Assembly (NCBI RefSeq): GCF_051622035.1
Contig: NC_135367.1
Location: 29,342,001 to 29,406,000 of the forward strand
DNA length: 64,000 nucleotides
From: Arctopsyche grandis
Lineage: Eukaryota; Arthropoda; Insecta; Trichoptera; Hydropsychidae
Direction: 5' to 3'
A program made the position numbers and the translations under genes. This document shows, one piece after another, positions 12,701 to 18,700 of the stretch (position 1 is the first letter of the stretch; the number at the start of each line of letters is the position of its first letter). The notes under the pieces are model-generated. The model searched no databases and was not told the DNA's origin. It saw nothing but the letters and a program-made list of their open reading frames with translations.

Positions 12701-15700
12701 TCATAAAAATACAACCTTCCGATGTATCCAGCTTGAGGTCCCATTCCGTTGCGATCGTCCATAACTCTTTGAGGCTGATTATTGACAACTTTACCGTCAT
12801 CGTTCCCTTTCCATGTGCCGTCGTCTTCTTTAAATGACGCACTTCTGCAATTCAAACGGGAATTTTGTGTCAGTTCACATTTCAAATGAATTGAATTGAA
12901 TTTCAAATTTACGCATGCACTTTAAATGTTACAAATAGTAAAGTAAAAAAATAAACATCGTAAATACTTGTTACACGGCAGGACGCAGATACCACAACAT
13001 TTTTCCATTCCTGAAAGATTTTTCTCGGCTTCTTTCATGTCGGCGTTGATTTGATCCATACCCTCCTCGATGCGGTCCAGTTGTTCTGTATTAATCATTG
13101 CACAAAGAGGCAAATATAAAACGATTAGTATAATTGTAACCAAGTGTAAGCAGCAATATTGTATAGTGTGTGTCGAATTTAATTCATTTTAATCATTATG
13201 ATCAAAAATTTCAATTCAAAAACGTAAATAAATATTATATTACAGAGAAGAATCTTTACGATTGCTAGATAAACCACTATACATACATACTCGTACTATG
13301 TACATACATATGTATATGGCATATTCAAGGAAAAATGGATTTGAAAAGTGACAGATTTCTATTCAGCAATATGATTAACATATAAAAGTTTGAAAATAGT
13401 AAACATTGAGTCTAAAAAGTATACTTGATATTATTAATAAAATCGGAAAAAATTCAGACTCTTCAATAAAAAAAAAAATAATTTTATTTGTAATAACGTA
13501 ACAAACAACAAAGTCATGAAGAATAGTGCAATCGTATTAAAATAAAAACAGAGTGAAATACATACATACATACATATGTAGTATCAAAATTAGCCTAATA
13601 ATGACTGTAAATAATTGTAGATTGTATGTACTTACTTATGCACAATGTTACTGAGATGGTCTACTCTACTTACATATGGATGTACATATGTACATATAAT
13701 AGATTAAGTCTTAAGTGGACTTAAATTGAATTAAAAATCGATAATATTTTAAAACGAAGGCACTAATCTTCATAAAATATCATTCATAATATAATATATA
13801 AAATCTAACATTTTATGGAGTTAAACATTAAGCGGCAAACCTTAGTGTAAATATTTCCAGCGCATTCACCACACATTATTGAAGAACAAAGCAAAAGTAG
13901 CGCTATGTTATTGCGCATCTAACACATTTCAGATAGATTTATCATGTCACATTGAATCGGTTAAGGTGAAAATGTTAGTTGTGGCAACCGAGTCAAATTG
14001 AATTAGATATATTAATTATGTGAGGATATTGTCAAATTGTATATGGGTTCTATTGTATTGGTTCTAAGTACGTCGCCATATTGAGAATTGATTGACACAA
14101 ACAAATGAAAGATGAATCGGAAATGTGTGGAAATAAACTGAATCGTGGAAGATACATATGTATGTATGTAATTTGGACACAGTACTGATTATGTGTAGAC
14201 TTTGCGAGACAAAAACTGTGCAACGAAACCATTTCCCATATAAACATTATACTACATACATAACGTATGTATGTCTTACATATGTATGTATGTACCTATA
14301 CATACATAGTTTGCTGGATGATCAATTTAAACGGAAAGAAACTGGAATGTCATTTGAGCACATTACATATGTATTTGAAGACATTGAAGTCGACAATAGA
14401 AATTTCAATTGCAAAGATGTGTTGGAATGAGTGTAGAGGTTTGAATTTGATGGCGAACTGTATAACTGGTATTATGTAGTATATATATGTACTGTGCTGT
14501 GTGACACTTGACGATCAGTGCTTACCTGTGAACCGACCCGTGATACATTTTCAGTCGCTCCACTAATGTATGTACATATGTCCATTATGTAGGTACATTG
14601 TACGTCTTCACTTCAGTTAAAACTATGTAAAATACTAATCAAGTCGAACTTGAAAATATATCACCAATTTATCGATAGTGTACTTTGATTTGATTGGATC
14701 CAAGTGTGTGTTTTTGTTCGCCGTCACTGATTTATTTCATATACATAAGTATTATATGTATATATTGTGCACTAAACGTGTGGTTTTAAGTTATATAAAT
14801 ATATTTTTAAGTATATTCGTACCTGTAATTTTTCGTCGTGTAAATAATCAAATGTAAAAAATAATGATAATATTTGAATGCGGCTCTATAGAAAAAATTA
14901 AAAAATAATAATATATGAATATATGTTTATATGTAAGTAAATAAATAAATAAAAAATCGTATGTGATCTGAGAATTGACGTAATATTTTGAAAATATTGT
15001 TTAGTAAGTACTGAAAGTGGAAGGTTGAGAGAAGAGTATCTCAAAATAACAACAAGTCGTTTATTTATCATGAGAAAATTACTTATAAGCAACCATCGAC
15101 TACGTTTGTGCTTTAAAAATAAAATTTATACAAAAACAAAGCGTTTTTATCATAGATATTTATTACGATTTTTGCAAAATGAATGTGTACATATAATCGA
15201 GAGATTGACAGAGAACACCGTGTGAGCAGCGGCGAGTCATCTCGATAAAAAAGCTTTGTTAAAATAAAATAAATTATGATTTTAAAACAAAATAATATAT
15301 TACACCTAAACCGATAACAAAATGATATATATATATATAGATATATATATATATATATATATATAATATAATCTTAAACAATAAGCAAGGTGCGTAAATA
15401 AATCATAAGTTTGGAATAATTCATATTTTAATTTTGAAAAAACGTTAACAATTCAAAGTGGAAGTGGACAATTACAGCTTACATACATACTCGTATGTAT
15501 GTATGCAGTATTAAAAAAAAAAGATTTGATCAATGTTTAAAAATTCGAAATGCCAAATAGGAATTACACCAAAGCTTGAAAAATGACCAAAAATAAAAGA
15601 AACTAATTGTAATCGTTTTTATGCTACAAAGGTCAGGATGCTTACCCCCTTGCTCATCCAGCATGACGAGGGTTTTCATGCCCACCTCGTGGCTCTACAA

Positions 15701-18700
15701 CACACCAACAGTGTCACTAGATCTGGCCCAGACAAATTACGCAGGACACGTGGGGATTTTCAAAGGATCGTGACTTTCCCCGTACGAAAGCTTTTACAAT
15801 ACGGCTCATCGCCTCGCATTGGTTCAAATAAATACTTACATATGTACATCGAGCAAAAATCATATTAAACCAAAGCGCAATTTGCAAAAACTTTCGCGAG
15901 CGAGGAACGTACGTTATTTAATGGGCCAAAAAAATAATAATAAAAAAAGGTGAACTTGAAACCAAATAAGGTACAAATTAAGCTAGTTCTTTTTGATTTG
16001 AATCAAACTAAATATGATTTTTTTTTTCAAAAATTTGGATGGAACTCGGTATTCTTGTGAATGGTGAGGAAAACGTGATTTGTCAGGGTATGGGTAAGAT
16101 CAAAAAATTATTAACTGAAAAAACAAAAAGCTGATTAAATCAAAGTAAAGCCATTCCTATTAATAAAAAAATAAAAACACAAACTGCATCAACGTGATTC
16201 AATTAAAAATAATTACTATTTTATACACAAATAAATACATAAAACAGGTACAAAATAAATACACGCTATTTCAAAAGTCTTCAATGGACAAATTAAATTA
16301 GAACATTAGAATTCAATAGCATGTGAATTCTTGAAGGTAAAGGAAAAGAGCCTTTGAAATAGCGTAGTAAGTGGAAGGAATGGAGAAAGATGACATATCC
16401 ATACTTCAACAAACGCATCAGTGGATATTAGAGCTTTTAAATAATAAGAACGATAAATCTTCTTTCACTAAACAGTAATAATTAAAATATAACCTGATGA
16501 AAATTATCAAAAATTAAAATAATAACATCGGCCCTAGACAGAAATGCTTATTTTTAAATAGTATAATAAAACAAAGAGTTTTACAATCAGATTGCAACAA
16601 CTGAGAAAGATATGTGTATATATATGTATATACATGTATGCATATGTACATATATTGAAGATATATTTATATTGTACGTACATACATACATATATACATA
16701 CTATACATATATTAAAGATAAATAAATTCGTATCATACAATAGCTTTGCAACAAACAATCATGGCCACTGGGCTGCTCTATATATTTATAAATATATAAT
16801 ATATAAATAAAAATGAATACGAAATAATAGCCGACAATAAATATCACCCCAAAATAAAAACACAAAGTAACATTTAACATATCCCATTTACATATACATA
16901 TATACATACATATATAAATATATATATATATATATATATATATATATATATATATATATATATATATATATATATTATATATGTATATATGTAGAATAAT
17001 AATAATAATAATAATAATAATAAAAATAATATATATATATATATATATAGAAAGTAAATAATAATATCAATCAAGAAACAAGAGATCATATCAAAACACT
17101 CAAGTTAAACAGTTAGTAAGGTCGGTAGAGCTGAGAAAATTGGCAAACTGCAAGACACATAAAACAGAAACGATTGATAGTATTGTTTTTTTTTTGTTGT
17201 TGTTGTATCGACTACCAGCGTGCGCTTCTGTTATTCTTACCGCCCTGATGAGTCAACATTGTGTTGGTCTGCGTCCCGGCCTCCTCGCTCTATACACAGA
17301 ACATACATGAGAGTATATCAGTTGGATATCGGTCACGGTTACGGTGCTGAGGCAGAACGGTGTACATACAGCAACAGCACACTACAGTACAGTACACTCG
17401 CCTACAAACCCTCACATAATACGTATTCAAACCAAAACACCACTATATACTTAATTACATATATATATCATATGTATGCAGATTAATTATTATAAATAGG
17501 TACTATGTAGAAAAAAAATTATTACTTAAATTTACTTTACATCTCTTATATTATATTAATTATATAAATATATATACATATATAGTATATGTTTAAACAA
17601 AACACATCAAAATATAAACAAAACATCCAAAAATAAAACAAACGAATGATAAATGTGTTAAAAAAAGGTTTACATTGAAACAAACAAACGAAAAAAACCA
17701 AACTACAGGCACAATATACATTATTTCGATATACAGATCAATGGCGAATCGCGAAGAAGGAAAAAAGACATAAGTCAACCACAAGAAGCGAGCTAGACTA
17801 GGTATGCGCAAGACGTTCCCGTGTGGAGCAAAAACAAGCCCAAGCATGTACCGAAGTGAGCGGACTTCAAAAGTCCCAAATTTTCAGTCTTGCAGAACAT
17901 CCGTTAAACGCGACACATCACACTGATCGAACGTTTTCATCGCTCCTTTATGTCATCTGTCATATACATATATCAAATAGCAAATAACAAAATTATGTTA
18001 TGATTATCATGCATTATGTGCCACACACAGCCGGTGCCGATTAGCGGATGTTCCGCAGTAGGTACTTAAAAACAAAAACTAATAAAGCGATATATAAATA
18101 TGTATATAGATATATATATATATATTATATACCCGCATTTCATTCATGATCAGGTTGAAGATGGCACATCACAAGAAACTAAGAATATTAATTAACCAGT
18201 GACAGCGACACACATGCAGCTACCTTGGTAGTATCGTCCTTGTATTGTATTGTTCTGCTTGGTTTTATCCGTGAATCAGAATTATATTGTGTGTCTTGCG
18301 GGCATTTATTTTTGAGAGTGAACCATTCAGTGAGATTTGTGTCAATACGTACGATAAGGGTTAGGGGGGCAGGTGTCGGGGGTCGGGGGTCGGGGGTCGG
18401 GGAGGAGTAATGTGTTTAAATGGCACTTCGTCTGGCGCTTCGTGTGGCCGATTGCTATTATTCATTATTATGGTGATTTTGACGGCACAAGGGTTACAGG
18501 CAGCATAAAATTATTTATAAGTTGTCAAGTGTTGTAAATGTATGATATGTTGAATCACTCACCTCCCTGGTCGTCTAGAGCGACCAGAGTGCGTATTCCG
18601 GCCTCCTTGCTCTATGGCCAGCCGCAAAAAAAAACAAAAATTGACATATTTATGTTAGTATCAGATGGTGGGTGGTATAGTGGACAGAATAAGTGGGTCT

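Follow-up and report, generated by a model that had tools for sequence, protein, structure and literature searches.

Three tandem 49-nucleotide exons in a SNAP-25 gene of Arctopsyche grandis, predicted to be mutually exclusive and to differ at the synaptotagmin-1 interface

What might a SNAP-25 gene do with the same short exon three times over? The minus strand of the stretch of Arctopsyche grandis DNA analysed here (64 kilobases (kb) of contig NC_135367.1, positions 29,342,001 to 29,406,000; hereafter the window) carries a complete SNAP-25 coding region, and within it stands a triplet of 49-nucleotide (nt) exons, which we call A, B and C. The reading that we favor, at a probability of roughly 0.57, is that these are tandem-duplicated, mutually exclusive exons in the sole SNAP-25-type gene found in this genome, with A and C predicted to couple SNAP-25 to synaptotagmin-1 and B predicted to uncouple it. 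Within this reading we infer the splicing, the exclusive use of the copies, the decay of mis-spliced RNA, the altered binding and the physiology.

A first-pass annotation had described the three copies as tandem exons with GT/AG sites, one length and the same phases, and our reconstruction bore this out: each copy is 49 nt long, lies at the stated coordinates between an AG and a GT, is entered in phase 0 and is left in phase +1. The flanking exon borders at 23826 (upstream) and 13085 (downstream) were likewise correct. It was also right that all copies encode the same segment and keep Gln53, although that segment proved to be mammalian residues 39-54 plus one base of codon 55 rather than residues 39-55: each copy carries 16 full codons followed by the first base of the next Glu codon. 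Identity to the mammalian segment is 13/16 residues for A, 11/16 for C and 8/16 for B. Counting both strands, the window has 52,277 words of 16 open codons. Scored against this segment with BLOSUM62, the triplet took ranks 1-3 among them (scores of 65, 58 and 38) and the fourth word scored 23. All three copies have AG before and GT after at 49 nt, compared with 0 of the 9 next-ranked words listed, and no fourth copy of comparable score was found among the open 16-codon words on either strand of the window. Scored against A, the 137 open cassettes of the form AG-49 nt-GT in the window (63 on the minus strand and 74 on the plus strand) give 77, 52 and 34 for the triplet and 8 for the next best. 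Further, the exons have a guanine-cytosine (GC) content of 0.59-0.61, compared with 0.29-0.47 in their 200-nt flanks.

The reading frame treats the copies as alternatives. Use of a single copy stays open, whereas skipping all three, or joining A to B, A to C, B to C or all of A, B and C, shifts the frame into a premature stop in each case. The copies are thus arranged as exclusive-exon clusters are, with tandem homologous exons in one intron between the same constitutive exons, equal phases, intact GT-AG borders and a frame that breaks otherwise. These comparisons support A, B and C as homologous, intact exons of which the frame permits one at a time. Each transcript would take one copy, and the skipped or joined products, being frame-shifted, would be routed to nonsense-mediated decay. 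The earlier proposal that choice is enforced by frame holds in so far as joint use or skipping leads to a stop; the frame penalises joint use but does not itself select an exon. By their coordinates, A and B are separated by an intron of 1,273 nt and B and C by one of 1,546 nt, lengths that speak against a simple steric block. That all five joint or skipped products carry a premature stop would also suit a role for B and C mainly in dose control, in which splicing them in together with A would yield RNA destined for decay, and the proteins made with B or C would be of little consequence. We regard this as very improbable: conserved coding sequence is not required of a poison exon, and yet a transcript with B or C as its one copy would encode a full open protein in which the core residues are kept.

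What exon choice would alter in the protein depends on which residues face the core of the SNARE bundle. We take layers -4 to 0 to lie at residues 39, 43, 46, 50 and 53, a placement inferred by the 4-3 helix spacing from residue I67. I67 itself forms layer +4 (PMC10911398). The five presumed core positions are identical in A, B and C (S39, G43, T46, L50 and Q53) and belong to a set of seven invariant positions (39, 41, 43, 46, 50, 53 and 54). The chance that the changes would miss all five core positions is 0.013 for B, with eight changes, and 0.058 for C, with six. Exon choice would swap the surface of residues 39-54 in the first SNARE helix and leave the inward core untouched; with the core kept, no isoform would lose the ability to form a SNARE complex. 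This genome also encodes SNAP-29, a Qbc SNARE whose best solved match is SNAP-29 (1e-17) and which likewise has S, G, T, L and Q at the five positions; the solved chain has Ser at the third. In setting these five residues beneath a different surface SNAP-29 is like exon B, whereas SNAP-29 comes from a separate gene and the rest of a B isoform is ordinary SNAP-25.

The surface that would be swapped is one that synaptotagmin-1 contacts. The 49-nt exon segment (39-54) nearly coincides with a SNAP-25 peptide, residues 37-53, derived from the primary interface with synaptotagmin-1 (PMC8967716). A figure legend of that paper names K40, D51, E52, E55, Q56 and D166 as interface residues, and positions 40, 47 and 48 are given there as differing places at or near the interface (PMC8967716). 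The combined mutant K40A/D51A/E52A/E55A/D166A has been used to disrupt the interface (PMC9811660). The disease mutation V48F falls in the hydrophobic patch and is reported to reduce the docking that depends on synaptotagmin-1, to increase spontaneous release, and to make evoked release smaller and less synchronous. Its effect goes beyond a simple loss, since it tends also to greater binding of partner SNAREs; SNAP-25 is unstructured before partner binding (PMC10911398).

Of the interface positions that fall within the exon, A carries K40, L47, V48, D51 and D52 (four of five kept, with D for E52) and C carries H40, L47, V48, D51 and E52 (again four of five kept). By contrast, B carries E40, N47, T48, T51 and H52, so that all five are changed (K40E, L47N, V48T, D51T, D52H). 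Exon B alters three of the five positions of the combined mutant (40, 51 and 52) and the same residue as V48F; unlike those mutants, it is natural and apparently splice-selectable, has other replacement residues and leaves E55 intact. On the partner side, the synaptotagmin-1 exons on contig C8 keep R281, E295, Y338, R398 and R399 (5/5), with residue numbering checked against the rat sequence. A and C look interface-competent, and B is predicted to resemble an interface mutant. Because SNAP-25 contributes the swapped surface to the primary interface, A and C would be coupled to synaptotagmin-1 and would support fast, clamped, calcium-triggered release, whereas B would form SNARE complexes that synaptotagmin-1 grips poorly. 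With B, a larger share of fusion may escape the clamp or occur asynchronously, or B may couple to a different sensor or tether.

Exon B could also be a real exclusive exon that serves ordinary or non-neuronal secretion, or that addresses another partner such as a different synaptotagmin, tomosyn, Munc13 or Munc18. Its V48T change gives the residue that mammalian SNAP-23 has at position 48, and SNAP-23 works with a synaptotagmin in airway cells (PMC8967716), so V48T alone need not uncouple. The gene content of the genome is in keeping with such a role as well. A genome search, in which only the best candidates were scored and 49-nt exons were not reported as rows of their own, found no second SNAP-25/SNAP-24-type gene, so a housekeeping form may come from splicing instead. 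Of the 7 rows obtained with the SNAP-25 query, 6 fall in this gene and 1 falls at the SNAP-29 locus of contig C1; the SNAP-24 query gave 5, of which 3 lie in this gene and 2 at the SNAP-29 locus. Such a search does not prove absence, nor was it aimed at stray short-exon copies. In fruit flies the work is split between two genes, and a single gene with six possible isoforms could do the work of both here. Relatives of a 131-residue protein query were also sought in prokaryotic and viral contig collections, where 12 and 2 pattern matches, respectively, included none related, a result that is uninformative on insects. We consider a B exon of this ordinary or differently partnered kind rather unlikely. 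No direct counterpoint stands against it, and it overlaps with the uncoupling that we favor, from which it differs in the partner.

The divergence of the copies bears on whether they are under selection. Of the 49 bases, 24 distinguish A from B, 19 distinguish A from C and 20 distinguish B from C. The proportions of differing synonymous and nonsynonymous sites (pS vs pN) are 0.90 vs 0.38 for A and B, 0.83 vs 0.27 for A and C, and 0.71 vs 0.34 for B and C, and synonymous sites between the copies are saturated or nearly so. In simulations that placed all differences on one freely drifting copy (100,000 runs per pair), an open frame with at least the observed similarity survived in 0.076% of runs from A to B, 0.005% from A to C, 0.006% from C to A and 0.89% from C to B, figures that overstate selection because a functional partner contributes harmless changes. 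A fairer simulation held one copy functional and let the other decay as a free relic, with 40,000 runs per setting and settings that bracket the observed base identity. With C as a relic of A, P was 0.006 to 0.001. When the five core residues were also required, P was 0.0009 to 0.00015 for C against A, 0.003 to 0.00007 for B against A, and about 0.002 for B against C. Free decay was fully compatible with the data when the divergence was set lower, at values that fail to give the observed identity. Kept splice sites, length, phases and GC-rich composition were not required in the simulation, and the kept splice sites, lying outside its demands, add to the case for both B and C. Together, these comparisons support selection well for C and moderately for B.

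Several points weigh against the reading that we favor. On similarity alone, the fairer simulation is consistent with B as a free relic of A (P of 0.08 to 0.006) or of C (P of about 0.07); the argument for B relies on the core residues, whose positions were assigned by spacing and selected after the sequences had been seen; and the comparison covers one genome. By a rough splice-site matrix, a weak guide by which the constitutive 118-nt exon also scores low, A, B and C have donor ranks of 1, 6 and 4 among the 644 GT sites of the intron and acceptor ranks of 29, 61 and 43 among its 309 AG sites, which leaves the acceptors of B and C unremarkable. At the interface, E55 and Q56 sit in the next exon and are unchanged with B, and D166 too lies outside the exon, so binding of B may be weakened, not lost. 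Finally, B is changed at 8 of the 11 non-core positions, and all five interface positions would fall among these with P = 0.12 (20/165), so its changes are not statistically aimed at the interface. Judged by its residues, B abandons the interface; we do not claim that selection aimed at it.

Some of these points raise the alternative that only A, or A together with C, is in use, and that the remaining copy or copies, most of all B, are duplicates in decay that chance alone has left in place. B differs from A at 8/16 residues, as many as 8% of runs of free decay beside a functional copy reach its similarity when divergence is matched, and the acceptors of B and C rank below that of A; yet the same simulation gives C in 0.1 to 0.6% of runs, B falls to 0.3% or less once the five core residues are required, and both copies retain length, phases, both splice sites and GC-rich composition, none of which the simulation demanded. 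We find decay quite improbable as an account of the triplet and retain exclusive, functionally distinct exons as the favored reading.

The triplet belongs to a gene whose remaining exons could be assembled from start to stop (Table 1). Its two alternative terminal exons, 7a and 7b, differ at 18/60 bases, yet at only 2 of the 20 residues that they share, and they end in RAHDLLK and RANKLLKS, respectively. Pairing each 49-nt exon with each terminal exon yields six open proteins, all 215 or 216 residues long and closed by a single final stop, and six isoforms are predicted from the triplet and the two terminal exons. The protein with B and 7b matches the SNAP-25 family in Pfam (PF00835, 78.9 bits), and its first SNARE motif, with the B segment in it, finds SNAP-25 chains among solved structures, the closest being the 1l4a chain at 1.8e-23. 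The B-containing protein has both the family domain and a SNARE motif with the zero-layer Gln; a Pfam scan of a 30-residue piece alone gave no match. A bolder possibility, which we consider less likely than not, is that the triplet is a three-state splice switch on almost exactly the peptide that synaptotagmin-1 grips, in which A and C would fall under both clamp and trigger and B would be free, and in which the terminal exon would tune the far end of the bundle.

Table 1. Exons of the SNAP-25 gene, in the order of the coding region (coordinates are positions in the window)
Feature	Coordinates	Strand	Remarks
First coding exon	24005..24106	-	ATG one base past an AG; GT donor
42-nt exon upstream of the triplet	23826..23867	-	Ends in phase 0
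Alternative exon A, 49 nt	18563..18611	-	13/16 residues as in the mammalian segment; donor rank 1/644 (rough matrix)
Alternative exon B, 49 nt	17241..17289	-	Five presumed core-layer residues kept; five interface residues named in papers all changed
Alternative exon C, 49 nt	15646..15694	-	Core layers and L47, V48, D51, E52 kept
118-nt downstream exon (EQLDRIEEG...CNK)	12968..13085	-	Single copy found; occupies the place of vertebrate exon 5
Exon after the 118-nt exon	12716..12844	-	Assembled B/7b protein matches Pfam PF00835
Exon encoding most of SNARE motif 2, to INRK	12494..12638	-	Ends in phase 0
Alternative terminal exon 7a	9312..9374	-	AATAAA 339 nt past the stop
Alternative terminal exon 7b	6680..6745	-	Poly(A)-type signals downstream

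How one copy would be chosen over the others is a separate matter, and pairing between docking and selector RNA sequences was considered as a mechanism. Complementary 11-mer pairs between the introns number 58, compared with a shuffle mean of 9.45 (0/100 shuffles as high). Among the 40 listed of these 58 words, 38 are of the ATGTACATATG microsatellite type, and the longest inverted repeats of the intron are mostly (TA)n arrays (25 listed of 326). We rejected the excess as evidence for RNA pairing, as the words listed are mostly microsatellite, and comparison of complementary words and inverted repeats found no docking site in the intron. Two long (TA)n arrays, at 16899-17066 in the B-C intron and at 15314-15365 after C, can pair with one another and are probably microsatellites only. 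The motif TGCATG occurs 6 times in the 10.7-kb intron, with the nearest occurrences after A at 18218 and 18013, an observation that is descriptive only.

The arrangement has counterparts in other arthropod genes and in vertebrate SNAP-25. In the arthropod clusters of Dscam, myosin heavy chain and nicotinic receptor alpha6, tandem homologous exons replace one protein segment, as they would here; those clusters lie in different genes, and the comparison of complementary words brought out no docking/selector pairing for the SNAP-25 triplet. Vertebrate SNAP-25 makes an obligate choice between two copies of exon 5, which encodes 39 residues with nine differences, located toward the end of the first SNARE motif and in the cysteine region (PMC2581893). 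The duplication is reported from bony fish and higher vertebrates but from neither Torpedo nor Drosophila (PMC2581893). The two systems are alike in being tandem exon duplications in SNAP-25 with changes that reach the first SNARE motif and with an obligate choice of one copy, which for the triplet is predicted. In vertebrates, however, the next exon is duplicated, in two copies that span the palmitoylated cysteines, whereas here it is the preceding exon (39-54), in three. The first-pass annotation had correctly noted that the vertebrate pair starts slightly later: the 118-nt exon, which starts inside codon 55 and has the cysteines, takes that place here and was found once, not as a 5a/5b-type pair. 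Its further suggestion that the triplet is independent of the vertebrate pair agrees with the differing arrangement, but "independent" rests on position only. By sequence comparison the device is the same as in vertebrates, and the exon, the copy number and the protein surface differ. Among the titles and abstract openings listed from the open-licence literature on SNAP-25 splicing we found no report of alternative copies of the 49-nt exon, nor any of an exclusive-exon cluster in an arthropod SNAP-25, and such isoforms could already be present in genome annotation; SNAP-25 is likewise absent from the main text of an exclusive-exon study of 15 insects and of a fly neuronal microexon study.

Other features of the window and genome lie apart from the SNAP-25 gene. 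Near the low end of the window, a ZIP zinc transporter exon occupies positions 1180-2034 of the plus strand (Pfam PF02535, 149.9 bits). A poly(A) polymerase head domain exon lies at 61727-62053, also on the plus strand (PF01743, 84.5 bits), and by eye probably belongs to a CCA-adding enzyme. An open frame at 42812-43384 of the plus strand resembles part of a retrotransposon reverse transcriptase by eye, has no Pfam match at 0.01 and stays unassigned. Elsewhere in the genome, an nd2-cox1-cox2 stretch (C1:36082829-36087169), named by Pfam for cox1 and by reading of the sequence for the others, lies inside a 42.7-megabase contig and is open in the invertebrate mitochondrial code; it reflects either a recent insertion into the nuclear genome or a join made during assembly. 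No transfer RNA turned up in it when ARAGORN was run with the bacterial code. TTAGG repeats form a long run near position 42661000 of C1, within 6 kb of the contig end (42667021), with scattered copies inside. Genome-wide, a 25-mer of this repeat has 31,317 forward and 20,972 reverse matches, as in insects with TTAGG telomeres, and the repeats and the nd2-cox1-cox2 stretch together point to an insect-type genome.

In the papers cited here, the primary interface was probed with engineered or disease mutants. If exon B is used, this gene would provide a natural, selectable form of SNAP-25 in which the interface is altered and the SNARE core is intact, and clamping would be separable from triggering. 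Two animal lineages would then have diversified neighbouring exons of SNAP-25, using the same device on different surfaces of the protein.

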